IMG/VR virus record: IMGVR_UViG_3300009285_001154
Location: 1 to 41,372 of that record
DNA length: 41,372 nucleotides
Reading direction: 5' to 3' (one strand)
Source of the DNA: a virus
In this document: in pieces, positions 4,550-25,633 of the stretch
Numbering within the stretch: position 1 is the stretch's first letter
How the letters are laid out: each line of letters starts with the position of its first letter
The notes under the pieces: generated by a model
Seen by the model: only the letters and a program-made list of their open reading frames with translations
Database searches by the model: none
Told to the model about the DNA's origin: nothing
Translations under genes and position numbers: made by a program

Positions 4550-4779
4550 ACTTCCTCCTCTATGTCTAAAATTATTTTCTTTTCACTATATCCAATATCT
4601 GTCACCCAGTTTATTTTGAATGAGGTATAAAGGTCACGATGGGGACATTTATTAATTTCTTTCATCGGCATATCTCGTAAGTAGCCACCTATACAGTTGC
4701 ATTTTCTAACCATTCTTGGCTCTATTTCAAAGTCTAGGTATTCATCTCGTAGTATTTTAATCAGTTCTCTTACTTTCAT
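4546..4779 (-). CDS. small phage protein, MKVRELIKxL type
   Basis: 77 residues. The opening MKVRELIKILRDEYLD is a pattern seen in many small uncharacterised phage proteins that begin MKVxELIxxL. Four cysteines (CNC near 28-30 and CPHRD near 46) may bind metal. An AAGGAT motif precedes the ATG. No function known. Confidence 0.6.
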   Translation of the reverse strand: MKVRELIKILRDEYLDFEIEPRMVRKCNCIGGYLRDMPMKEINKCPHRDLYTSFKINWVTDIGYSEKKIILDIEEEV

Positions 4780-4844
4780 AAATCCTTTCGGCTTAGTGCC
4801 TGTGTGTTAAAACATCATCTCCTTCGGCAGTTACGCCTGTTTTG

Positions 4845-5072
4845 TTAATACATAGCTCTAACTAAAGCAATAAGACTAATTATCATTGATATTAAACACA
4901 TATAAAATACAAATGATTGACCATTTGCTAAATATTTAATTGAGTCAGAATGACTAATATTTATTTCTGTTTGTTTATCAAATTTAACAAAATCAAAGTT
5001 TCTCATAGTTTTATAAATAGTTGGTAGTATCTTTGCTATTTTTACATCATCTTTATTATTTGGTTTTTTCAT
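4845..5072 (-). CDS. small C-tail-anchored membrane protein
   Basis: 75 residues with a polar N terminus and one C-terminal hydrophobic segment (about residues 53-72, FVFYMCLISMIISLIALV), so probably tail-anchored in the inner membrane. Strikingly AT-rich compared with its neighbours, which may reflect recent acquisition. A clear AGGAGGTAAAGT precedes the ATG, and the start overlaps the upstream stop (ATGA). Not recognised. Confidence 0.6.
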   Translation of the reverse strand: MKKPNNKDDVKIAKILPTIYKTMRNFDFVKFDKQTEINISHSDSIKYLANGQSFVFYMCLISMIISLIALVRAMY

Positions 5073-5377
5073 ACTTTACCTCCTATTAACTCTTGAGCTT
5101 TGAGGGATGATATAACATCACTTATGTAGATAAGTCCTGGAGTTCCACCTCCACTTCCCCCCTGTTGGGGTAGAGTTGTTTGAGGTAATAAACTAATCTT
5201 CTCTATCACTTGTTGGTTGTGTTTTTCAATCGCTTGGTCTATTTGGGAGTGGAGGAAGTCTTTAACTTCGTCAGTTACATCAACTTCCCATTCATCATTC
5301 TTTTCGTCCCAATCTATCATTACTCCATCGGGAAACTTCTCATCAAACGCCTCATCAATAGCTTTATAGTCTTTCAT
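5069..5377 (-). CDS. unknown early protein
   Basis: 102 residues from ATG 5377 (preceded by AAGGAG at 10 nt); an in-frame ATG at 5431 with AGAGGAAT upstream would add 18 residues, so the start is uncertain. The N-terminal half is acidic and helical (YKAIDEAFDEKFPDG, then WDEKNDEWEVDVTDEVKDFL); a glycine-rich linker (QQGGSGGGTPG) precedes a short C-terminal helix. No recognised family. Confidence 0.55.
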   Translation of the reverse strand: MKDYKAIDEAFDEKFPDGVMIDWDEKNDEWEVDVTDEVKDFLHSQIDQAIEKHNQQVIEKISLLPQTTLPQQGGSGGGTPGLIYISDVISSLKAQELIGGKV

Positions 5378-5433
5378 AGTATTGTTACTCCTTATTCTTT
5401 TTTTAAGTGGTAAGCCTTTTCCGTTGTTCATAG

Positions 5434-5961
5434 TTATTTATTCCTCTTATAGAAAGGAACTACTCCAACTCTGTCTGAGCAAGTCCAAGCCTGTAGTCCC
5501 TGGCTATCTTTGATAATCTTGGCGCAGTCTAGGTTGTCTTTCCAGCTATTTTGGAAGTCTAGCCCTTTACAGAGTTTAGAGTTAGCGTCGTTTATTTGAG
5601 CCAGCCCCCAGTCTATTGTTCCATTCCTGTTAGTATTGGTTCGGCTCTGATCCCAGGTTCCATTCTCACAGGTTCCGATGATTGTAATCAGTTTGTCGGC
5701 ATCGTCTCCAAACTTCTCTACTATGTAGTTAAGGATGCGCTGTTTTTGTGTTATGGGAGGTAGTACAATCGTTTCTACGGACGGTTTAGGCTCTACTGCC
5801 ATAACTTCACCAGTGATGGGTCTATGGAGTTCTACGGGGGCATACAACCAGTTAATAAACGCCCCGATAGCGACAGTGGCAAGGAGAAGACGGATTCCGG
5901 CGAAGGTAGATCGGGAGAAGGGTTTGATGTAGTATTTTCCTTGGTGTCGCAGTTGTTTCAT
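5434..5961 (-). CDS. membrane-anchored lytic transglycosylase (SLT-like)
   Basis: 175 residues: short basic N terminus, one transmembrane helix or uncleaved signal (about 20-40), a proline-rich linker, then a lysozyme-like domain. The proposed catalytic glutamate is E99 in TCENGTWDQS, followed by the GTIDWGLAQIN motif (114-124) that matches the GSxxYGLxQIN signature of transglycosylases, and an AWTCSD segment near 158. It would cut glycan strands outside the membrane. Its place in the early leftward operon, away from the M23 lysis gene, argues against simple timed lysis; see findings. Overlaps no gene; the stop abuts the gene at 5377/5431. Confidence 0.8.
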   Translation of the reverse strand: MKQLRHQGKYYIKPFSRSTFAGIRLLLATVAIGAFINWLYAPVELHRPITGEVMAVEPKPSVETIVLPPITQKQRILNYIVEKFGDDADKLITIIGTCENGTWDQSRTNTNRNGTIDWGLAQINDANSKLCKGLDFQNSWKDNLDCAKIIKDSQGLQAWTCSDRVGVVPFYKRNK

Positions 5962-5986
5962 ATTGCCTCTAGATTACCACATATTG

Positions 5987-6583
5987 TCAAATGTTGTCAA
6001 TACCCAATTCCTTACCCATTACTTTTGTTTTCAATACAAACAGCTTTATTGTTTCTCCCGTCGCCCTAGGAGACAATTTACCATCTTCCCCAAAAATACC
6101 ATTAAAATAAACGATCAACTTTTTAATTGTTTTCTTGATGGACTCCTCTTTATTTTCTAGCCCTTGAAGAAAAGTAATAAAATCCATCGTAGTCATTTTT
6201 CTGGCCATCGCTCGTGCCTCAAGTCTTTTAATTTCAACACCGAAAGATTTCCTGTTTATGAAAAATGATTCCTTATTGTGGTAGTTTCTATGACAATTGT
6301 TGCACAGTGGTGTTAGATTCTCGGCGGAGTTATTAAGCCTATTTCTGTCTATGTGATGTATTTCGATGCCCCCTTTCTCCCCACACAGCGCACATCCAAG
6401 CTCTTTATTTTTCTGGACAAGTTTTTGATAAAAGTTTATTTCGTTGTTTTTTATCTTTTTCTTTAGCTTTAATAACTGGTAGATTCTAGATGAAGTAATC
6501 TTGTACTTCGACACAAGATCAACAATGTTCATCCCGTTGTCATAGTCTTGTATCAATTCTATATTCCTATCAATTCGTTTCAT
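5987..6583 (-). CDS. HNH endonuclease with N-terminal HTH (mobile type)
   Basis: 198 residues from ATG 6583 (AAGGAG 5 nt upstream; the upstream ATG at 6601 lacks one). The N terminus contains a helix-turn-helix (about 18-40, IVDLVSKYKITSSRIYQLLK) resembling NUMOD or resolvase-type DNA binding. The nuclease core is CALC (64-67), IEIHHIDRN (74-81), N82-N90 region and CNNCHRNYH (94-102). This is a typical free-standing phage HNH homing enzyme. The gene is more AT-rich than its flanks and separates the transglycosylase from the operon upstream, consistent with later insertion. Confidence 0.85.
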   Translation of the reverse strand: MKRIDRNIELIQDYDNGMNIVDLVSKYKITSSRIYQLLKLKKKIKNNEINFYQKLVQKNKELGCALCGEKGGIEIHHIDRNRLNNSAENLTPLCNNCHRNYHNKESFFINRKSFGVEIKRLEARAMARKMTTMDFITFLQGLENKEESIKKTIKKLIVYFNGIFGEDGKLSPRATGETIKLFVLKTKVMGKELGIDNI

Positions 6584-6617
6584 TTGGCTCCTTATAAGCA
6601 TTATTAAATAATCTATT

Positions 6618-10587: not shown

Positions 10588-10995
10588 ATGCCAAAGGTAA
10601 AACCTAGCGCAATAATTACCGCAGATTTCCCGCAAAGTGTCGCACAGTTTAATCCCACAGCCTCAATGAAAGTTTGGCTTGATACAGCAATAAATTTAGC
10701 AACAGATTCACCAGCAGAAATAGCAGAAGAGAGTAACCTCAGTAGACAGGGATGGTACAAATGGCTTGATATACCAGGCTTTGAGGATTGGTACTTCGAA
10801 AATTACAGACAAAAGCGCAGACGTTGGCTACCAAAATTAGATAAGATTGGTATGGAAAACGCCCAGAACGGCAAATATGATTTCTGGAAGGATATGAATA
10901 AGAAGGCGGGGGAGATTTTAGATGGAGTTTCCACCAATGTTCAGGTCAACGTGTTAAACCAAATCAAGAGCGACAAGGATAAGTATGGGATATAG
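10588..10995 (+). CDS. terS: terminase small subunit (putative), leaderless
   Basis: 135 residues directly before the terminase ATPase gene and overlapping it by 11 bases. Residues 40-60 make a helix-turn-helix (SPAEIAEESNLSRQGWYKWL), as in small terminase subunits that recognise the packaging site. The rest is helical and basic (NYRQKRRRWLPKL), with a C-terminal segment suited to contact the large subunit. The call depends on the HTH plus gene order; no catalytic motif is expected. Confidence 0.75.
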   Translation: MPKVKPSAIITADFPQSVAQFNPTASMKVWLDTAINLATDSPAEIAEESNLSRQGWYKWLDIPGFEDWYFENYRQKRRRWLPKLDKIGMENAQNGKYDFWKDMNKKAGEILDGVSTNVQVNVLNQIKSDKDKYGI

Positions 10996-11776
10996 CCCCG
11001 GATACCGACAGTTTATTGAGGACAGGTTATCAATTGTGGATAAGTCAGGCGAACTCGTAGACTTTATCCCCAATAAGATACAACTCAAATACCTAGAGGA
11101 GGGGACGGGAAAAGACATTATCCTTAAAGCACGCCAACAGGGATTCTCAAGTTTAATTCTTGCTATCTTTACCGCCGACTTTATTCTAAAAGAAAACAGC
11201 CGAAGTGTAATCGTGGCTGATATAGCCGATAACGCGATGGAACTCTTAGATCGTGTGAAGCTCTATCTTGAGTCCTACGGAGAGAAAACAGGAGCACCTA
11301 TCCCACTTAAGTATAATTCCAAGTACGAGCTTTACAATGAGACCAACAGGGCCCGGTATACCATAGGAACGGCAGACAAGACAGACTTCGGGCGATCTAA
11401 AACTATTACTAATTTACACTTATCCGAGTTTGCCTTTTACCGTGACGCAGAAAGACTACTGGCCGGGGTGATGCAAGCAGTGGTCCCCGAAGGAAGAGTG
11501 ATTATTGAGACCACAGCTAACGGGTTTAACTTCTTTAAAAACTACTGGGATGATTCCGAGCGGGGAGAAACAGGATTCAAGCCTTTATTCTTTAAGGCGA
11601 GTGAGTTTTATGATCCAGAATTCCTAGCAGTTAAAAAGAGAGACCTAGGAAGACTCTATGTACAGGAGTATCCTGACAATTTCCTAGAGGCGTTTGTGAC
11701 ATCGGGCGAGAGCTACTTTGACAAAGCCAGTTTAGCTACTTACTTACAGGAGACATCAAGTGCTAAAGAGATATAG
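10985..11776 (+). CDS. terL: large terminase, ATPase half (split gene)
   Basis: 263 residues corresponding to the N-terminal motor domain of a Terminase_6-type large subunit. Walker A-like KARQQGFSS (48-56), Walker B NLHLSEFAF (143-151), and the coupling motif IIETTANG (173-180) are in order. It powers DNA translocation into the prohead. The frame ends with TAG at 11774-11776 before the nuclease domain, which is encoded by the next, overlapping gene. AAGGATAAGT precedes the ATG. A single large subunit would be near 480 residues; the two products together make about that. Confidence 0.88.
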   Translation: MGYSPGYRQFIEDRLSIVDKSGELVDFIPNKIQLKYLEEGTGKDIILKARQQGFSSLILAIFTADFILKENSRSVIVADIADNAMELLDRVKLYLESYGEKTGAPIPLKYNSKYELYNETNRARYTIGTADKTDFGRSKTITNLHLSEFAFYRDAERLLAGVMQAVVPEGRVIIETTANGFNFFKNYWDDSERGETGFKPLFFKASEFYDPEFLAVKKRDLGRLYVQEYPDNFLEAFVTSGESYFDKASLATYLQETSSAKEI

Positions 11777-12404
11777 AAACCTAGACCACGGAGAGTTTAT
11801 TGTCGTCGGGGTTGATACTGCCGCCGGGGGAACAGACTATTGTGCAGCTCAATTCCTCTCTAAGACCAAACTAGATGTTCCGATTGTCTATCACAAGCAC
11901 ACTCTAGCCACCGAGATGACTCCCACCCTACAACAAGAGCTAGAAAGAATCTATGACGTTACTCAGGTAGCGCCCGTGGTAGCCTACGAAAACAACAACG
12001 GAGGGATATTCGAGTTAGAGAGATTGGCTTCACTCAACCGACTCAACAAGTATAAGATCTTTACTATGCCTCAGTACGGAGCTATCCAGAACGGACAACC
12101 AACCAAGTTAGGATGGTCCACCAATACAGCAACCCGACCCAAAATGCTCACCGATCTCAAAGAGTGTATCGATGGGCATTTAATTAGACTCTACGACAAA
12201 AAAACAATAGAAGAAATGTTTTCATTCATTGTTGTGCAGGGGACTACTACTTGGAAAGCCCAGGCTGAACAGGGCGGACACGACGATTTGGTCATGAGTT
12301 TAGCTATAGCATGGCAGCTCTACCAGTCAGAACAAGCCCCACAAGCGATTTGGCGAGCACCAATTTCGGATATTAGCAATAAAAACTGGGGGATTGGACG
12401 ATAA
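11760..12404 (+). CDS. terL: large terminase, RNase H-like nuclease half (split gene)
   Basis: 214 residues starting with GTG at 11760, behind AGGAGA at 8 nt. It carries the three acidic positions of the packaging nuclease: VVGVDTAAGG (D19), VVAYENNNGG (E77) and GGHDDLVMS (D175/D176). It cuts concatemeric DNA at packaging start and finish. The overlap with the ATPase gene is 17 bases in a different frame. A ribosome-binding site at the right distance supports two polypeptides rather than a sequencing error, although a +1 frameshift would also join them. The stop overlaps the next ATG (TAATG). Confidence 0.88.
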   Translation: MLKRYRNLDHGEFIVVGVDTAAGGTDYCAAQFLSKTKLDVPIVYHKHTLATEMTPTLQQELERIYDVTQVAPVVAYENNNGGIFELERLASLNRLNKYKIFTMPQYGAIQNGQPTKLGWSTNTATRPKMLTDLKECIDGHLIRLYDKKTIEEMFSFIVVQGTTTWKAQAEQGGHDDLVMSLAIAWQLYQSEQAPQAIWRAPISDISNKNWGIGR

Positions 12405-12694
12405 TGAACTCACTGCCTACCATAGTCGAACCCCAAACCAACGATGAAAGGTTCCTACAGGTCCTCATGCAAGGCGACCCAGAACTGGCAAGAGTCTATG
12501 CGTATATCAGAGAGACCAACTTTAACACAGCCATTCTCCCTCCACTCATCAGAACTCTAAGTAACTTAGCTATGGGCACAGGGTTTGGGAAGGTGCAGAT
12601 ATTTATGGAGTCAAGGGTTATTACAGCCATTAAACCAGAAGAATCAAACAAGGTTAATTTGCCCGTAGTTGACGATTCGGTAGAAAGTGTATAA
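12404..12694 (+). CDS. unknown protein between terminase and portal
   Basis: 96 residues, one-base overlap with the terminase nuclease gene. Mostly helical: FLQVLMQGDPELARVYAYIR and a second helix ending with TAIKPEESNK. No family recognised. A head-assembly role is likely from position only. A promoter overlaps its stop codon. Confidence 0.6.
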   Translation: MNSLPTIVEPQTNDERFLQVLMQGDPELARVYAYIRETNFNTAILPPLIRTLSNLAMGTGFGKVQIFMESRVITAIKPEESNKVNLPVVDDSVESV

Positions 12695-12728: not shown

Positions 12729-12762
12729 AGACTCTCACAAATTATTGTGGGGGTCTTTTTTT
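12729..12762 (+). terminator. terminator-like hairpin immediately before the portal ATG
   Basis: A 12-bp stem (12729-12740 with 12745-12756, two G-T pairs) with loop ATTA, running straight into seven T. AGAAGG (12720-12725) stands just 5' of the stem and the ATG at 12768 just 3' of the U-tract. By itself it has the form of an intrinsic terminator; its place between promoter and gene makes it a possible attenuator or structural bridge. Confidence 0.7.
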
Positions 12763-12767
12763 GTACT

Positions 12768-14768
12768 ATGAAGCAAGGATCGCTCTCAAAAGAAACATCA
12801 AGGGGAACAAAATCAGAGAGAACTTTATTCAAGGATGTTATCTCTCACTACGAACTAGCAAAACAAGATCTTGATGCTCGTATTCCAGACTGGGATAAGA
12901 AAGACGAACTATTCCGATCATTTATTGACGAATCCAAGTGGCCTTACAACTCGGTGGTGTTTGATCCCAGGGTATTTACCGCTATATTTGAGAAAACTGC
13001 GCGTCTAATGGCTAATAAGCCCCGTGGCCGCATGATCCCACGTGAGGGGGGCGATGCTATTGGAGCCAAGATCAACAACGAACTCCTATCTTTCCAATGG
13101 GACGAGAACGAACGAGTTGACGGGACCCCCATGCTGGCCAAGTGGGCCATGATGGACCAAAACGCACGCAAATACGGAGCATCATTCGCCTTAGTCAAGT
13201 GGCAATACCAGACTTGTAAGAAGAAAGTTGATGGTAAATACGTTACCAAGCCATTTTATGATGGTCCAGACTTCAAACCTCTTATTAACCGAGATGTCTT
13301 AGCTAATCCTTCATACTCAAGTGTTAAAGGTTGGTTCCAGTACAGAGATTATGTAACCCTAAAAGAACTTGAGTACACCAATGACTCAGCTAGGACCGAA
13401 CCCGTATACAAAAACCTTGATCTACTTAAAGACGCTATCCACCAGGACGAGGCTAAGGGGTCTGACACCCGAGAATCTAACTGGATGTCTAAAAATAAGA
13501 ACATCAAGTCGATTCCAGATCTATTGGGATCAGATACAACCAACAAAACTATTGAAGTGGTAACGGAATACTCAAACGAGAGATGGGTAACATTTGCCCC
13601 TAAGCACGGTGTAATTCTTAGAGACATCGCTAACCCCATGGATCACGGGCAAATCCCCGTAGTCATGCTTAAGTATTACCCAATTGATGATGATTTATAT
13701 GGACTCTCAGAGATTGAGCCCGTAGAAAGACTTCAGAGAGCCATCAACGCCCTACTTAATCAATATCTAGACAACATCAACATTTCTCTTTACACACCCC
13801 TTAAGATTCGAGCAACAGGCGTACAGATGCACACCATCGAGTTTGGTCCAGGGAAGAAATGGATAATGAACGATCCAGCAACTGACGTAGTTCCTCATGT
13901 TTCCGCAGGCAACGGAGTCGCTGAGTTTGCCTCAACCTATAGATTCTTAGTCTCAGCTATGCAAGAAGCACTCGGAGAAACCTCGGCCGTTACTTCTGGA
14001 GCTATGCCTGGTGCGCCCGAAAAGACCGCAACAGAGATCAAATCATCTGATGTACAGCGCAACGCCCGGGACAACTATAACCAGATGTACTTAGCCGAAG
14101 CCCTCAAAAAGCAAATGTTGTTCTGGCACACAATGGATAGACAGTTCTTATTTTCAGACCCCTCAGCTCAACAGAAAGTAATCAGGATCGTGGGTAAAGA
14201 AGCGCTTCGCTACTTCCAGGGCGCAGGACTTGATCAGGAATCACTACAAGAGAACGAGGCCATGGCGATTGCCGAAGCTGGTGCTCCCGAAGTTGATGAC
14301 CAGTTTAAGAGTCCAAACTTCCCGGTTGACCTGGACGGAATTACTGTTCCCAAGATGACAATGGATGACACGGGTGAGATGGGTACTCTAGTTCTCGAAC
14401 CTGAAGATCTCATGGGTGAGTACGACTACATTCCAGATATTGAGTCTATGAGTCTCCCAAGCGATCAGGCTACAACCGCAGCCCAGAGGTCAATGGTAGA
14501 GTCCGCAGCCAGTCCAGAACACGCTCAAGCTCTCGCCATGGAAGGATACAAGATTAAACTCAAGGAACTAGAGGAAGACTACTACGAAAAACTAGGCCTT
14601 AAAGATGCGGATAAATACTATGAGAAGTTACCACAACAACCACAATTACCAGTACAAGGAGGTCAGAATGCAGCTCTCCCCCCAGGAAGAACTAGCCCTC
14701 AAGGACAGCCTGGAGTTCAAGGCGCTATGCCAAACCCAGGGATGGCTCAAGCTCCGCAAATGGCTTGA
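12768..14768 (+). CDS. portal protein
   Basis: 666 residues. The dodecameric ring at the capsid vertex through which DNA passes. Recognisable by gene order (after terminase, before scaffold and capsid), length, and typical segments: ARLMANKPRG, WNAI-like helix ARKYGASFALVKWQY, EVVTEYSNERWVTF, GLSEIEPVERLQRAINALLNQ and a C-terminal proline/glutamine tail. The start is ATG 12768, since the frame before it is hairpin sequence. No classical Shine-Dalgarno stands within 10 nt of the ATG; the nearest is AGAAGG on the far side of the hairpin. It overlaps the next gene by 101 bases. Confidence 0.88.
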   Translation: MKQGSLSKETSRGTKSERTLFKDVISHYELAKQDLDARIPDWDKKDELFRSFIDESKWPYNSVVFDPRVFTAIFEKTARLMANKPRGRMIPREGGDAIGAKINNELLSFQWDENERVDGTPMLAKWAMMDQNARKYGASFALVKWQYQTCKKKVDGKYVTKPFYDGPDFKPLINRDVLANPSYSSVKGWFQYRDYVTLKELEYTNDSARTEPVYKNLDLLKDAIHQDEAKGSDTRESNWMSKNKNIKSIPDLLGSDTTNKTIEVVTEYSNERWVTFAPKHGVILRDIANPMDHGQIPVVMLKYYPIDDDLYGLSEIEPVERLQRAINALLNQYLDNINISLYTPLKIRATGVQMHTIEFGPGKKWIMNDPATDVVPHVSAGNGVAEFASTYRFLVSAMQEALGETSAVTSGAMPGAPEKTATEIKSSDVQRNARDNYNQMYLAEALKKQMLFWHTMDRQFLFSDPSAQQKVIRIVGKEALRYFQGAGLDQESLQENEAMAIAEAGAPEVDDQFKSPNFPVDLDGITVPKMTMDDTGEMGTLVLEPEDLMGEYDYIPDIESMSLPSDQATTAAQRSMVESAASPEHAQALAMEGYKIKLKELEEDYYEKLGLKDADKYYEKLPQQPQLPVQGGQNAALPPGRTSPQGQPGVQGAMPNPGMAQAPQMA

Positions 14769-16271: not shown

Positions 16272-16307
16272 AGTAAAAATATATTGGAAAGGAGTAAAAA
16301 TATATGG
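16272..16307 (+). repeat. tandem duplication at the capsid gene ribosome-binding region
   Basis: AGTAAAAATATATTGG (16272-16287) and AGTAAAAATATATGG (16293-16307) repeat with a 21-base offset. The second copy carries the true ATG after AAAGGAG; the first has TTG where the ATG would be. The AT-rich, unstructured setting should favour high translation of the capsid gene. Confidence 0.6.
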
Positions 16308-17233
16308 CATATGGACTTTTAACACAAACCGGTGTTAGAGATACCGATGCTGCGATGAGAGAGGATCTGATTGACATCATTACTGATGTTAGCCCAGACT
16401 CCAATCCCCTCATGACCATGCTTGGTCGCACCAAGGCTTCACAGCCTTTGCACCAATGGCTCGAGGATTACATCGCGCGTCCTACAACTGTTTCATCTTC
16501 AATCGAAGGTGCCGCAGCTACGTACGCCGATCTGGCAAACCCAGAACGACGCACTAACTGGACAAACATCGTGACTCAAACATTCCGAGTTTCTGGTACT
16601 GAAGCCGCCGTTGATCATGCTGGCATGGGCGATCCCTACGATTACCAAGCCGCTAAAGCATTGACCAACTGGAAAAATCAGGCTGAGTTCACCCTCGTTC
16701 GTGGAGCTATGGCTTCGGGTTCGTCAGGTGTGGCTCGTCAGATGGCTGGCCTTGATTCCGTGATTACGTCGCACTTTACTGCACGTAACTCTGGATCGAG
16801 TCTTTCTGAGACTGAGTTTAACGACGCAGTTAAAGAAGTGTGGAACGATGTAGGTTCTAGCGACGTGTTCGATATGGTACTTGTACCTTTCGCGCTCAAG
16901 CAACGAATCTCACAATTCACAGCTGGTAGTACCAAAACCGTGGATGCAAGCGACAAGCGCTTAACACGACCAGTCGATGTGTACGAATCCGATGGTGGCA
17001 TCGTTCGTATCTTCGCTCACAAAGATGTCCGATCCGCTGCTGCTACCCCAGGCCCAACGTTCTTGGGTATTAAGGAAGACAAGTACAAGATCGCTTATCT
17101 GCGTGATCCTAAGAGGGAAGAGCTCGCTAAAGATGGTGACCGCCGAAACGGTCAGATCGTTGGTGAATTCACCCTTGAGTTCCTTGCGGAGCGCACCTCT
17201 GTTCGCAGAGTTGGCTACAACATGAACGGTTAA
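16304..17233 (+). CDS. major capsid protein, SU10-like HK97 fold
   Basis: 309 residues. The segments PLMTMLGRTKASQPLHQWLEDYI, RTNWTNIVTQTFRVSGTEAAVDHAG and the C-terminal KDKYK...FTLEFLAERTSVRRV match the pattern of SU10-type (DUF5309) major capsid proteins that assemble the icosahedral shell. It differs from its neighbours by codon choice with more C and G at third positions, as expected for a very highly expressed gene. GAAAGGAG lies before the ATG and a strong terminator follows the stop. Confidence 0.88.
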   Translation: MAYGLLTQTGVRDTDAAMREDLIDIITDVSPDSNPLMTMLGRTKASQPLHQWLEDYIARPTTVSSSIEGAAATYADLANPERRTNWTNIVTQTFRVSGTEAAVDHAGMGDPYDYQAAKALTNWKNQAEFTLVRGAMASGSSGVARQMAGLDSVITSHFTARNSGSSLSETEFNDAVKEVWNDVGSSDVFDMVLVPFALKQRISQFTAGSTKTVDASDKRLTRPVDVYESDGGIVRIFAHKDVRSAAATPGPTFLGIKEDKYKIAYLRDPKREELAKDGDRRNGQIVGEFTLEFLAERTSVRRVGYNMNG

Positions 17234-17298: not shown

Positions 17299-17706
17299 AT
17301 GGATAGCACTAAGCTACTAGCCGATAATCTTCGTTGGGCTCCAGCTAAAGCAGTAGATATGGGCAACCGCCTAGTCTCCCTCCGTCAAACTCAAGGACTA
17401 TGGACCGTAATTGAAGAAATAATGCGGATGTGGGCTGACACAAACCCCAGAGAATATCAATCTTATCTAATTGACTTAGAAGATACCAAAGAAGACGGAA
17501 AGATTACCTCGGTAGGCAATAAGAGGTGGTCTAACGTCAGCAAAGATCTCAACGGGTCCATGCTACGCCACCGACTAGATATACCCGTCAAAGTGGTCTA
17601 CATGATCCGCAGGTTATATTCTGTAGACGAGTGTCCCATGGACGCTGACTTTTATGATGAGTGGTCCCGCAGATTCCCCAAAACAGTAGTATCGGAGCTA
17701 AGATGA
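17299..17706 (+). CDS. unknown protein, leaderless, first gene of the glycan cassette operon
   Basis: 135 residues, helical, with several tryptophans (LWTVIEEIMRMWADTNP, YDEWSRRFPKTVVSEL). No family recognised. It is the first cistron after the capsid terminator and overlaps the glycosyltransferase gene by 4 bases (ATGA). By position it could be a head-tail connector protein or the entry gene of the cassette; nothing in the sequence decides this. Confidence 0.65.
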   Translation: MDSTKLLADNLRWAPAKAVDMGNRLVSLRQTQGLWTVIEEIMRMWADTNPREYQSYLIDLEDTKEDGKITSVGNKRWSNVSKDLNGSMLRHRLDIPVKVVYMIRRLYSVDECPMDADFYDEWSRRFPKTVVSELR

Positions 17707-19541
17707 GCATTGCCCTGTCGATGATTGTTAAAGGAGACGAACAGGTAAGCGACTTAAAGCGCGCCATAGAGTCAGTAAAGTCTCAAGTTGATGGAATGTT
17801 TATTACGATTACTACAGAATCAGACGGGGAACTCAAGAAAATGGCCGAGGGGATGGGGGCGATAGTAGCTTATGAACCCAATTTATTTTTTCACTCGGTA
17901 ACTAAAGACGAAATTAAGTGGGCTAAGGACTTTGGGCTTACTCCTACGGCAGTACCGGGGGATAAAATCTTTCTCTTTGACCAGGCTCGTAACTACTGCA
18001 TGAACCTGATCCCCAAAACCTTTGACTGGATCTTCTGGATGGACACAGATGACGTGTTTAGAGGTGAATCACTCAAGAAACAAGCTCAGATAGCGGATGA
18101 AAACCAGGCTCAAAGCGTGTTTATGAACTACATTTACCAGGCAGACATAGTCGATGGGAAAATCCAACACATCCTGATCGAACATCTACGGGAGCGCCTG
18201 ATTAAGAACGACGGATCGTACAAATGGGTAGCACCAATCCATGAAACCTTGATTGAACAGCGGCCCACCAAGAAGATTGACACTAAAGAGTGTGATGTTT
18301 TACATCTCTCAGACAACGAGCGTAAGGTAAGGGCGATAAGTAGAAACATTAAAGTCCTTGAGTACGCCGTGATGCTGTGTAAGGCGGAAGATCCCCGCCC
18401 CGTTTACTATCTAGCTAAGGCATATTTTGATGTCTGGCTCAATGATAAAAACAAAGACTCGCTAATGCAGGCCAAACACTTGTTTGGACTTTATCTGGAT
18501 GGTCCTCATCCCTCAGGATGGACCGAGGAGCGAGCACAGTGCTGGGAATACCTTGTTGAAACATATAGATCACTAGGAGAACTCAACAATGCCATCAAAT
18601 GCGCTCACAACTCGATGATCGAGGACGAGAGATTCCCCTCTGTCTATATCAATCTAGCCCTCTGTTACCTCTATAAGATGGACTACAACCGTGCCCTGTT
18701 CTGGGTACGACTAGGAACCAAGATAGATCAGCCCCAAACCACTCTCGTAGCCTCACCCAAAGACTTACAAAGTAGAACACTTGAGGTAATATTTCACTGC
18801 GCCCTCAATACCAGCAAGATTGATGAAGCCATGGCGGCGGCCGAGAAACTGTGTGAACTGCACCCGGGAAATCAAGAGTTTATTAACCGCGTTAACTTAG
18901 CCAGAAACATTAAAAATCAATCTGAACTAACTAGAATCATGGTGGAGATGGCCAAGTATCTTGAATCAACCGGAGAAACAGCCAAACTTAAACCTCTAAT
19001 CGACGCTACTCCCCAACTAATTAAAGACAATCCATTTATGATCGAGTGGGCTAATAAGGTCTATCCCCCCAGAGTACACTCCAATAACGAGATAAGCATC
19101 TATGTGGGACCATGTTTTACTACTTGGTCGCCCAAATCGCTTGAGAACCCCGGTCAAGCATTTATTGGTGGGAGTGAGGAGGCAGTTATTTACCAGGCCC
19201 TAGCCCTTACTAAGTGCGGTTGGAAGGTAACGGTATACGCAGACCCAGGAGCGGATGAGGGAGAGCATGACGGAGTTACCTATTTACCCTACTACAAATG
19301 GAATAAACAGGATGAGTTCAACATTGTAATTGGCTGGCGCAGACCAGACTTCGTAGACCAGAACTACAAAGCTAAGAAAAACTATATCTGGTGCCATGAT
19401 CTTCTTAACCCACAAGACTTCACTGAGGAGAGACTGGCTAAAATAACCAAGGTGATGGTTCTTTCTCCATTTCACAGATCTAATATCCCCAACGTACCAG
19501 ATGAAAAGATTATGATTACGAGTAACGGAGTGGCCCTATGA
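17703..19541 (+). CDS. GT2 glycosyltransferase with TPR repeats and half of a GT-B domain
   Basis: 612 residues from ATG 17703 (GGAG 5 nt upstream). Residues 1-220 form a GT-A domain: IALSMIVKGDE, then FDWIFWMDTDDVF with the DxD metal motif at 114-117. Residues about 235-420 are tetratricopeptide-like helical repeats (ARPVYYLAKAYFD, YINLALCYLYKMDYNRALFW, SKIDEAMAAAEKLCELHPGN). From about 468 a Rossmann-type N-terminal GT-B domain begins (ISIYVG, GGSEEAVIYQALALTKCGWKV) and stops abruptly at KIMITSNGVAL. The matching C-terminal half is encoded at 19701. GT2-TPR proteins often glycosylate proteins or peptidoglycan-linked chains. Confidence 0.82.
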   Translation: MSIALSMIVKGDEQVSDLKRAIESVKSQVDGMFITITTESDGELKKMAEGMGAIVAYEPNLFFHSVTKDEIKWAKDFGLTPTAVPGDKIFLFDQARNYCMNLIPKTFDWIFWMDTDDVFRGESLKKQAQIADENQAQSVFMNYIYQADIVDGKIQHILIEHLRERLIKNDGSYKWVAPIHETLIEQRPTKKIDTKECDVLHLSDNERKVRAISRNIKVLEYAVMLCKAEDPRPVYYLAKAYFDVWLNDKNKDSLMQAKHLFGLYLDGPHPSGWTEERAQCWEYLVETYRSLGELNNAIKCAHNSMIEDERFPSVYINLALCYLYKMDYNRALFWVRLGTKIDQPQTTLVASPKDLQSRTLEVIFHCALNTSKIDEAMAAAEKLCELHPGNQEFINRVNLARNIKNQSELTRIMVEMAKYLESTGETAKLKPLIDATPQLIKDNPFMIEWANKVYPPRVHSNNEISIYVGPCFTTWSPKSLENPGQAFIGGSEEAVIYQALALTKCGWKVTVYADPGADEGEHDGVTYLPYYKWNKQDEFNIVIGWRRPDFVDQNYKAKKNYIWCHDLLNPQDFTEERLAKITKVMVLSPFHRSNIPNVPDEKIMITSNGVAL

Positions 19542-19714
19542 GGTGGGGAGAATTGGCTATTAAGCTGGGGAAGAGAAACTGGGTGGCCCTAGATTTGATT
19601 ACCCCCTTATCCACCCACTACAAAATAAGTAAGACAGAAGTTAAGCGCATAGTAGAACAGGGCGGTCTAACGGTTGAGTTCCTAGACCCAAAGGTAAAAA
19701 ATGAGAAACAATAA
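19538..19714 (+). CDS. 58-residue S4-like ORF inserted between two glycosyltransferase halves
   Basis: Small gene overlapping the upstream stop (ATGA) and the downstream ATG by 14 bases. The second half, KISKTEVKRIVEQGGLTVEF, matches the SKxExxRxIxQGG pattern of S4 RNA-binding domains such as those at the end of tyrosyl-tRNA synthetases and sugar nucleotidyltransferases. It splits a GT-B enzyme exactly at the inter-domain linker. Origin and role unknown; a fragment of a nucleotidyltransferase is one reading. Confidence 0.55.
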   Translation: MRWGELAIKLGKRNWVALDLITPLSTHYKISKTEVKRIVEQGGLTVEFLDPKVKNEKQ

Positions 19715-20276
19715 GAAAGTGTGTTATACATCAAGCTATGATAGAGGCTTAGAACACCTCCTAAAAATGTGGCCTGATGTTAAAAAGGTTGTCCCCGGGG
19801 CCGAGCTATTCATAGCCTACGGATGGCAATTGTTCGTCAAGTTCTACTCCAATAATCCAGCATCAATGGGATGGAAAACAAAAATGGATGAGCTGATGAG
19901 TCAACCAGGGATCACTCACCTAGATCGCCTACCCCAAGACAAGTTGGCAGAGGAGATGAAAACCTGTGGAATTTGGGCTTACCCTGCTCACTTTGGGGAG
20001 ATAAGTTGCATTAGTGCCATGAAGGCCCAGTGCTACGGAGCAATCCCTGTTGTAGTGAACTACGCAGCCCTCCAGACCACCGTCCAACATGGGATCAAGG
20101 TTGATGGTGATGTATATGACAAAGAGACTCAAGAGAAGTTCAAACAGGAACTAATCTCTCTCTTAAAAGACGACAAACGACAAGAAGAGATTAGAAAACC
20201 CATGATTAAGTGGGCAAAAGAAACCTTCTCTTGGGATAAAGTAGCAAGTGAATGGACAAAGGAGTTTAGGCTATGA
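19701..20276 (+). CDS. glycosyltransferase, GT4 C-terminal half
   Basis: 191 residues: KKVCYTSSYDRGLEHLLKMWP at the start is the usual beginning of the donor-binding domain of GT4-type enzymes, followed by ITHLDRLPQDKLAEEMKTC, AYPAHFGEISCISAMKAQ (the E-x7-E region) and AIPVVVNYAALQ. An N-terminal acceptor domain is missing; it is at the end of the protein encoded upstream. AAAGG precedes the ATG by 6 nt, so this half is translated separately. Activity would need association of the two halves. Confidence 0.8.
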   Translation: MRNNKKVCYTSSYDRGLEHLLKMWPDVKKVVPGAELFIAYGWQLFVKFYSNNPASMGWKTKMDELMSQPGITHLDRLPQDKLAEEMKTCGIWAYPAHFGEISCISAMKAQCYGAIPVVVNYAALQTTVQHGIKVDGDVYDKETQEKFKQELISLLKDDKRQEEIRKPMIKWAKETFSWDKVASEWTKEFRL

Positions 20277-23740: not shown

Positions 23741-24452
23741 TGTGATTATCCCCTGCTTTAATACCAGCGAAGAAATCCACCGGATGACCCAGATGAGTGT
23801 GGAAACAATCAAAACGGCCAGACAAGACGTTGAGATGATCATTGTGGATAACGGGTCTACATTCGCTCCGGGATACCTAAGGGAAGTCGCAGACATCTAC
23901 ATTCAAAATAGGTCTAACTTAGGATACCCAGGGGCAGTTAATCAGGGCTTAGCACTGGCTAACGGAGATGTCTTGTGTATCTCAAACAACGATATTCGCG
24001 TCCCCGAGAACATTTTTGAAGTAGGCGAGGAGATCTTAAAAGATCCCAAGGTGGGATCAGTCCACTACAAGATGATCCCCTATGATGAGCCGTTTAACTT
24101 TGGAGACAAAATTTGGTTAACAGGTAAAGAGCGATGGTGTACCTCCTCATTCTTTCTAATCAAGAAAGAAGCGTTGCCAGAAGGAAACTATGACCTTAAC
24201 TTCGGCATGGGTGGGTACGACGACTGGGATATGTGGCATCGGGTGCGCCACCTAAACGGGTGGAAAACTGCCTACACCAACAAATCAGCTTATCAGCATT
24301 GGGGGAGCTGGACACTTTCTAAGATGCCCCAGTTTAAAATGGACGAGAACCGAGAGTATTTTAAAAGTAAACACGGCGAATATGCCGAAGACATCTGGAA
24401 TAGATTATATCCCGACCAGATGCGGGAAGAATACTATGGAGGGTTCGCATGA
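23724..24452 (+). CDS. GT2 family glycosyltransferase
   Basis: 242 residues with a clear GT-A fold: ISVIIPCFNTSEE (5-17), MIIVDNGS (38-45), NLGYPGAVNQGLALANGD and SNND (87-90) in the DxD position, then FGMGGYDDWDMWHR (the ED/DWD acceptor motif). No membrane segment, so it works in the cytoplasm on a nucleotide sugar and a soluble or membrane-surface acceptor. AAAGGA upstream; overlaps both neighbours. Confidence 0.88.
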   Translation: MTAKISVIIPCFNTSEEIHRMTQMSVETIKTARQDVEMIIVDNGSTFAPGYLREVADIYIQNRSNLGYPGAVNQGLALANGDVLCISNNDIRVPENIFEVGEEILKDPKVGSVHYKMIPYDEPFNFGDKIWLTGKERWCTSSFFLIKKEALPEGNYDLNFGMGGYDDWDMWHRVRHLNGWKTAYTNKSAYQHWGSWTLSKMPQFKMDENREYFKSKHGEYAEDIWNRLYPDQMREEYYGGFA

Positions 24453-25633
24453 ACTACACCACCGTTACTAAATGCCGTTCGTGCGGCTCTGATAAATTAA
24501 CCGAGGTTTTTTCACTCGGAGAGCAAAAGATTGTCGAGTTCACCAACACCTCTGTACTAATTCCTTTAGAACTAATCCAATGTGAGACCTGTATGCTAGT
24601 CCAGCTACGCCACACCACCAAACCAGAGTTATTGTGGAATGATGGGTACGGATACCGATCTGGGGTAAATGATGCGATGGTCAGGCATCTTCACGGGATT
24701 GCTCATGAGGCGGAGAAGTTTGTCGAGGACGGGGACACTGTTTTAGATATAGGGTGTAACGATGGGACTTTGCTCGATGGGTACACCAAAAAGGTTAAAC
24801 TCGTGGGCATTGACCCCTCTGAGAACGTCGCCTCTTATATCAACGAGACCCTAAAGGGTAAGGACTATTCTGTAGTTTTTGACTTCTTTAATGCAAAAAA
24901 ACTACAAGATAAGTTTAAGGTTATCACCGCGATCTCAATGTTCTATGATTTGGATGATCCCAACAAATTTATGAAGGATATATCCGACGTTTTACTGCCC
25001 GGAGGGGTATTCATCATCCAACAAAACTATTTAGGTTCGATGATTAAGAACTGCGCCTTTGATAACATCTGTCACGAACATCTTGAGTATTACTCGCTTA
25101 CCTCACTCTCCAATTTATTACTGCGTCACGGGATGATGGTTTTTCGGGTAGAGGAGAACGATCTTAATGGTGGATCAATCAGAACCTATATCTGTCGGAT
25201 AGGAGAAAGACCACCAGAAAAAAGTGTTGAGGAAATGATAAAGAAAGAATCAATGCTGAGTGTTGGGGAGTTCTCCAAGAACGTTAAGAGAACCATTGAG
25301 TCGATTCGGGACGTAGTTCTAGAACTTTACAAGGAAGGCCATACTATCTATGCCTACGGAGCTAGTACTAGGGGCGGCACACTCTTACAGGCTTGTGGGC
25401 TAGATAGTCGTGTTATCCTAAAAGCCGTCGAGCGTAACCCCGACAAATGGGGCAAAGTGATGGAGTCAACGGGAATTCCGATTATCTCAGAGACTCAAGC
25501 CCGCAAGGAAAACCCTGACTATATGATTATTCTCCCCTGGTTCTTCGCTGATACGTTTATGGAGCGAGAGAAGGAATACACCTTTCACGGGGGAAAGTGG
25601 ATCGTCCCCTTGCCGAAACCGAGGATAGTATGA
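24449..25633 (+). CDS. sugar C-methyltransferase, NovU/TylC3-like
   Basis: 394 residues with the three-part layout of nucleotide-sugar C-methyltransferases: zinc-binding domain (CRSC 9-12, CETC 45-48), SAM domain with VLDIGCNDG (98-106) and VGIDPS, the catalytic-region motif ICHEHLEYYS (207-216), and a C-terminal Rossmann-like domain with YAYGASTRGGTLLQ and ILPWFF. These enzymes add a branching methyl to a deoxy-sugar nucleotide. Unusual in a phage, and a strong hint that a modified or branched deoxy-sugar is handled here. Start by ATGA overlap behind GGAGGG. Confidence 0.88.
   Translation: MNYTTVTKCRSCGSDKLTEVFSLGEQKIVEFTNTSVLIPLELIQCETCMLVQLRHTTKPELLWNDGYGYRSGVNDAMVRHLHGIAHEAEKFVEDGDTVLDIGCNDGTLLDGYTKKVKLVGIDPSENVASYINETLKGKDYSVVFDFFNAKKLQDKFKVITAISMFYDLDDPNKFMKDISDVLLPGGVFIIQQNYLGSMIKNCAFDNICHEHLEYYSLTSLSNLLLRHGMMVFRVEENDLNGGSIRTYICRIGERPPEKSVEEMIKKESMLSVGEFSKNVKRTIESIRDVVLELYKEGHTIYAYGASTRGGTLLQACGLDSRVILKAVERNPDKWGKVMESTGIPIISETQARKENPDYMIILPWFFADTFMEREKEYTFHGGKWIVPLPKPRIV

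Follow-up and report, generated by a model that had tools for sequence, protein, structure and literature searches.

We find that, in a large group of uncultured tailed phages, the DNA-packaging enzyme is encoded by two genes, one for the motor and one for the cutter. The locus was analysed in a 41,372-bp IMG/VR virus record (here called the window; its completeness is not shown, and a search of it for end repeats found none), and we consider it very probable that the large terminase is naturally encoded there by two genes, one for an ATPase subunit (TerL-A) and one for a nuclease subunit (TerL-B). What we observe is a pair of separate, conserved genes with intact active-site residues, purifying selection and clear domain identity, whose junction varies, carries cargo and can open into a long separation. 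Separate translation products, their non-covalent assembly and their function in packaging are inferred, with no protein or activity data to hand; their union in a single packaging machine is likewise inferred, the grounds being conservation, active sites, neighbourhood and the existence of natural single-chain forms. The evidence base throughout is sequence and predicted structure.

The earlier note had read the large terminase in the window as two overlapping genes, an ATPase gene and a nuclease gene sharing 17 bp, the second with its own GTG and AGGAGA, and both the ORFs and the PHROG matches agree with it (see the table). The TerL-B frame is in +1 phase relative to TerL-A, whose TAG falls within the TAT-AGA (YR) codons of TerL-B. 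Upstream, the assignment of TerS is tentative and rests on weak matches only, to TerS PHROGs 2538/24579 (E 0.09-0.13). Downstream, the predicted portal matches SU10_portal at E 2.8e-5 (under the Pfam cut-off) and the portal family phrog_1216 at E 3e-8, and a portal homologue follows TerL-B in 46/68 relatives; the small ORF after TerL-B has a homologue in place in 3/68 and so is not a conserved neighbour. About 26 window ORFs were compared with PHROGs, which was not an exhaustive search for a second TerL. Also present in the window are two glycosyltransferase-like genes shortly downstream of the capsid gene (17661-19541, phrog_13126; 19701-20276, phrog_2170), a tRNA methyltransferase-like protein downstream of these (24449-25633, phrog_4752) and an HNH endonuclease gene on the minus strand (5987-6601).

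Table. Features of the terminase locus in the window (positions counted from its first nucleotide).
Feature	Position	Strand	Details or basis
Small terminase TerS (probable), 135 aa, immediately before TerL-A	10588..10995	+	position, weak PHROG matches; tentative
TerL-A, ATPase (motor) subunit	10985..11776	+	ATG start, 263 aa
AGGAGA, Shine-Dalgarno-like site for TerL-B, 6 nt upstream of GTG	11748..11753	+	sequence
TerL-A/TerL-B stop/start overlap, 17 bp	11760..11776	+	sequence
TerL-B, RNase H-like nuclease subunit	11760..12404	+	GTG start, 214 aa
Small ORF, 96 aa, after TerL-B	12404..12694	+	no Pfam or PHROG family
Portal protein	12747..14768	+	SU10_portal, phrog_1216
Major capsid protein (context)	16304..17233	+	phrog_1328 E 8e-59

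Each half can be identified by profile and by predicted fold. TerL-A matches the TerL family phrog_2 (E 1.8e-13) and TerL-B the terminase family phrog_24361 (E 3.5e-11); a Pfam search of the two window proteins reached no family and found no intein splicing domain. Among PDB sequences, the TerL-A profile matches the ATPase domain of T4 gp17 (E 1e-8) and the TerL-B profile the nuclease domain of RB49 gp17 (3c6a, E 7.8e-10), in an alignment that begins at about gp17 residue 384, just ahead of D401, which is catalytic in T4 gp17 (PMC3012670). The AlphaFold models of TerL-A (pLDDT 83) and TerL-B (pLDDT 79) both have T4 gp17 (3cpe) as their top Foldseek match, with E 7.7e-11 and 1.8e-8, respectively. 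The motifs of TerL-A comprise a P-loop region KARQQGFSS (48-56), E148 in HLSE and an ETT motif at 175-177, and K48, R50, G53, R137, E148, E175 and T177 are invariant in 75-77 clusters of relatives; the acidic residues of TerL-B, D19 (GVDTAAGG), E77 and D175/D176 (HDD), are invariant in 77-78 clusters. TerL-A and TerL-B alike have dN/dS values of 0.03-0.14 wherever synonymous change can be measured, which indicates purifying selection on both.

Measured against a T4 gp17-type TerL, TerL-A has an ASCE ATPase complete with its P-loop, the catalytic Glu and a coupling motif, and the RNase H-like nuclease with its acidic triad is present on a separate gene, TerL-B; what is lacking is a single hinge-joined chain carrying both domains. 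The break lies near the position of the T4 gp17 hinge, and because it falls within the inter-domain linker no catalytic part is lost. A one-chain relative (L073) consists of the same two parts with a short linker between them, so that the split loses little except the peptide link.

Relatives were collected by scans of IMG/VR and genome contigs, with the best 80 matches kept per scan, and the loci were grouped at about 90% protein identity into at least 109 clusters. Among the 109 clusters listed, 74 are split and have no more than 100 bp between the genes, 25 are split and have over 100 bp there, one (L284) has TerL-B elsewhere, four have TerL-B fused, two are fused to another C-terminal part, and three are cut or without one half, leaving 106 in which the state can be read. 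The split state is found in 100/106 of these and the single-chain state in 6/106, again among the matches listed. A natural split enzyme with subunits, as the earlier note had suggested, is thereby strongly supported, its two-subunit function being inferred; intact one-frame relatives, which the note had named as a possible refutation, do exist, but only as that scattered minority. Homologues at 52-76% identity keep both frames open and break likewise between the domains, which places the split far beyond chance. In the records of ten relatives, searched with the TerL-B profile only, there is exactly one TerL-B match each, and a search of plasmids for TerL-B gave no match. One Oscillospiraceae contig (L188, coverage 1.86) looks split within a distant one-chain group and was set aside as a possible sequencing error.

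The same counts bear on the possibility that an assembly or sequencing indel has broken an ordinary one-chain terL. The reading frame does change at the junction, and the published phiPDS1 case (discussed below) looks alike; against this, the same break recurs in the 100/106 split relatives among the matches listed, together with starts, Shine-Dalgarno-like sites and inserts, and the junction recurs unchanged in another IMG/VR contig (L002), which matches the window at 99.984% across 6204 bp with a single mismatch and no gap. We therefore give an indel next to no credence: as a refutation of the split, it is excluded by conservation.

The junction itself varies among relatives. TerL-B is in phase +1 in 44, +2 in 12 and 0 in 3 of the 59 adjacent pairs of our first set; in the same set its start overlaps TerL-A in 51/74 pairs and is ATG, GTG or TTG in 67, 5 and 2 cases, respectively. 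A Shine-Dalgarno-like site of at least 4 nt precedes 32 of 74 TerL-B starts, compared with 8.5% of control ATGs. The stop codon of TerL-A is TAG, TGA or TAA in different relatives, and stop-codon reassignment was rejected on that ground.

These features weigh on the earlier note's second suggestion, a +1 frameshift that makes a fused form as well, considered here as a programmed shift within the overlap that would yield a fused TerL, either alone or beside the two parts. The prevalence of the +1 phase and the natural single-chain forms known in the clade would suit it, but other members need a different shift, or show phase 0 with a stop and a spacer, so that the conserved relative phase expected of a programmed frameshift is lacking. 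TerL-B moreover has its own start and Shine-Dalgarno-like site, no conserved slippery site was apparent by eye in the junctions inspected (no formal test was made), and whole genes lie between TerL-A and TerL-B in many of the 25 insert clusters. With differing phases, intervening genes and, in L293, a separation of 7.3 kb, across which a single chain by frameshift is impossible, the suggestion is unsupported as a general mechanism and we think it very improbable; a minor fused product by readthrough or frameshift in some members is not excluded by the sequences.

In place of a fixed junction, we find a slot for other genes. The 25 clusters with inserts of more than 100 bp, among the matches listed, carry 0.1-1.3 kb of unrelated genes, including HNH endonucleases (L005, L015, L048), a NinG-like protein (L079), N6/N4 and C5 DNA methylases (L075, L126, L092) and other methyltransferases (L048, weakly L057), nucleotidyltransferases (L068, L086), a HAD-like protein (L113) and, elsewhere, unknowns. 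In L126 the methylase sits exactly at the TerL-B start codon, a site that is empty in the close relatives L129/L131/L142, and on our first TerL-A tree the insert state switches at least 8 times on well-supported branches. In L284/L293 the two genes are 7.3 kb apart, the order in L293 being TerS-like, TerL-A, the 7.3-kb stretch, TerL-B and portal-like; this stretch holds a 1432-aa ORF of unknown function (L293 4137-8435). Among other loci, L147 has a 76-aa GroES-like ORF between TerL-A and TerL-B (4762-4992; Cpn10 E 3.5e-4, just under the cut-off), and the insert of L012 (1830-2890) consists of two unknown ORFs beside many short GGTATGG-like repeats. Besides its NinG-like insert, L079 has a TerL-B with an internal intein-like domain (4900-6555; Hint_2, Intein_splicing).

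Such cargo raises the question of whether the split is merely the by-product of an intron, intein or homing gene, with removal at the RNA or protein level restoring one TerL. Related HNH_3 genes, 47-62% identical to one another, occupy the slot in three clusters, and the L079 TerL-B does contain its intein-like insert. Yet 74/109 listed clusters have at most 100 bp between TerL-A and TerL-B, most of them overlapping, and in many insert loci an ORF spans the interval from the TerL-A stop to the TerL-B start. Rfam searches of 17 insert loci and the window junction gave no match, including to group I/II intron ribozymes, and the criterion for an intein or split intein is not met at the break, L079 having the only such domain, internal to TerL-B. 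A mobile element that is removed to restore one chain therefore receives hardly any weight from us; a homing gene may nevertheless have caused the first split.

To place the two-gene form in time, we rooted a quick tree (SH-aLRT supports) on one-chain prophage TerLs of Clostridia (~30% identity). Ingroup support is 100, and the six single-chain forms stand at six places inside, at least four of them on strongly supported branches; scattered as they are within the split clade, re-fusion is likely. One split followed by several re-fusions is the simplest account, although an unsampled fused ancestor inside the group is not excluded. In L046/L056 the clade ATPase is fused to a Terminase_3C nuclease, and a TerL-B profile search of these records found no TerL-B. 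A different fusion is seen in L245/L246, where the C-terminal part joined to the clade ATPase matches neither TerL-B nor any Pfam family.

Lineages also seem to have traded parts. L113, L146 and L160 have a common divergent ATPase type and TerL-Bs of differing relationship: the TerL-A data reject a grouping of L113 with its TerL-B neighbours (AU p about 1e-70), and the TerL-B data disfavour the three as one clade (AU test p = 0.04), the groups having been picked after the trees had been seen. For L135 and the window group, incongruence between the TerL-A and TerL-B trees is not significant (p 0.46, 0.22). As these trees indicate, ATPase and nuclease have been exchanged between lineages.

Exchange invites a two-gene variant in which TerL-A alone translocates DNA, while the cutter, TerL-B, is exchangeable, bound only loosely and without a part in translocation. 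Consistent with it are the weak co-variation of TerL-A and TerL-B identities (r = 0.21), the change of ATPase type while TerL-B stays (L113, L146, L160), and the L046/L056 fusions without TerL-B. Modular exchange is no proof of independence while pumping, however; the two genes are almost always adjacent, the low r is perhaps partly noise at 56% median identity, and the AU-test groups were chosen post hoc. We judge this variant unlikely, though a serious possibility.

The best reading remains a two-subunit terminase that is old and stable and whose two genes flank a slot for cargo. One operon would make TerL-A, equivalent to the N-terminal domain of T4 gp17, as the ATPase subunit, and TerL-B, equivalent to the C-terminal RNase H domain, would be translated separately, with a ribosome-binding site and start codon of its own that overlap TerL-A; the two chains presumably join non-covalently with each other, TerS and the portal into a working machine that packages and cuts the DNA. 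A single old split of a one-chain TerL is the most likely origin of the clade, after which the junction would have turned into a slot where genes come and go, and single-chain forms may have been re-made several times later, with the same or another nuclease. Models of T4-type motors disagree about the nuclease domain, some assigning it the movement of DNA and others cutting alone. With its parts kept as separate genes through deep divergence, the clade makes their coupling testable by omitting, mixing or swapping subunits. That its motor is two-component, with separate, exchangeable subunits, so that it can dispense with the covalent hinge regarded as essential in T4 and the ATPase may pump DNA unaided, is a proposal we hold only tentatively and would not presume. 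An essential packaging locus, in any case, harbours a gene slot, and surveys and trees built on terL may miss or wrongly join such split genes in uncultured phages.

In the open-access literature, beyond which lie most subscription journals, we found no account of a TerL conserved as two genes. The half-length PHROGs 24361, 26724 and 5653, which match TerL-B, TerL-A and the nuclease portion of L046, respectively, are catalogued as terminase or unknown function, and the same literature holds no description of them as a split enzyme that we could find. The nearest named phages checked for a TerL-A homologue (MW202692, Roseobacter phage CRP-7, MW202485 and Vibrio phage 1.182.O; about 28-29% identity) have TerL annotated as a single CDS of 513-642 aa. 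In Parabacteroides phage phiPDS1 (MN929097), the ATPase and nuclease domains of terL are in two CDSs, and its authors were undecided between codon table and assembly as the cause (PMC10773633); this TerL belongs to a different family (phrog_38), and its nuclease frame extends without a stop far ahead of the start annotated for gp46 (L022 4402-5055), which suggests a frameshift or indel in the published genome. The terL of phD2B and K1E is likewise in two ORFs, with a homing gene between them, which the authors suggest are exons of one gene (PMC4246154), whereas the clade described here is without an Rfam intron and most of its junctions are overlaps lacking an insert. The best fold match, with the same type of motifs, is to T4 gp17 (PDB 3cpe, 3ezk, 2o0h) and the RB49 gp17 nuclease domain (3c6a). 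T4 gp17 has its domains on a single chain, whose hinge is reported to be essential for translocation (PMC9958956; PMC3012670), and the clade's chain is broken there. Reviews of T4 report that gp17 cut at the linker retains ATPase and nuclease activity while translocation is lost completely (PMC3012670; PMC9958956), so that the covalent link matters, at least in T4, and the phages described here constitute a natural test of that rule.
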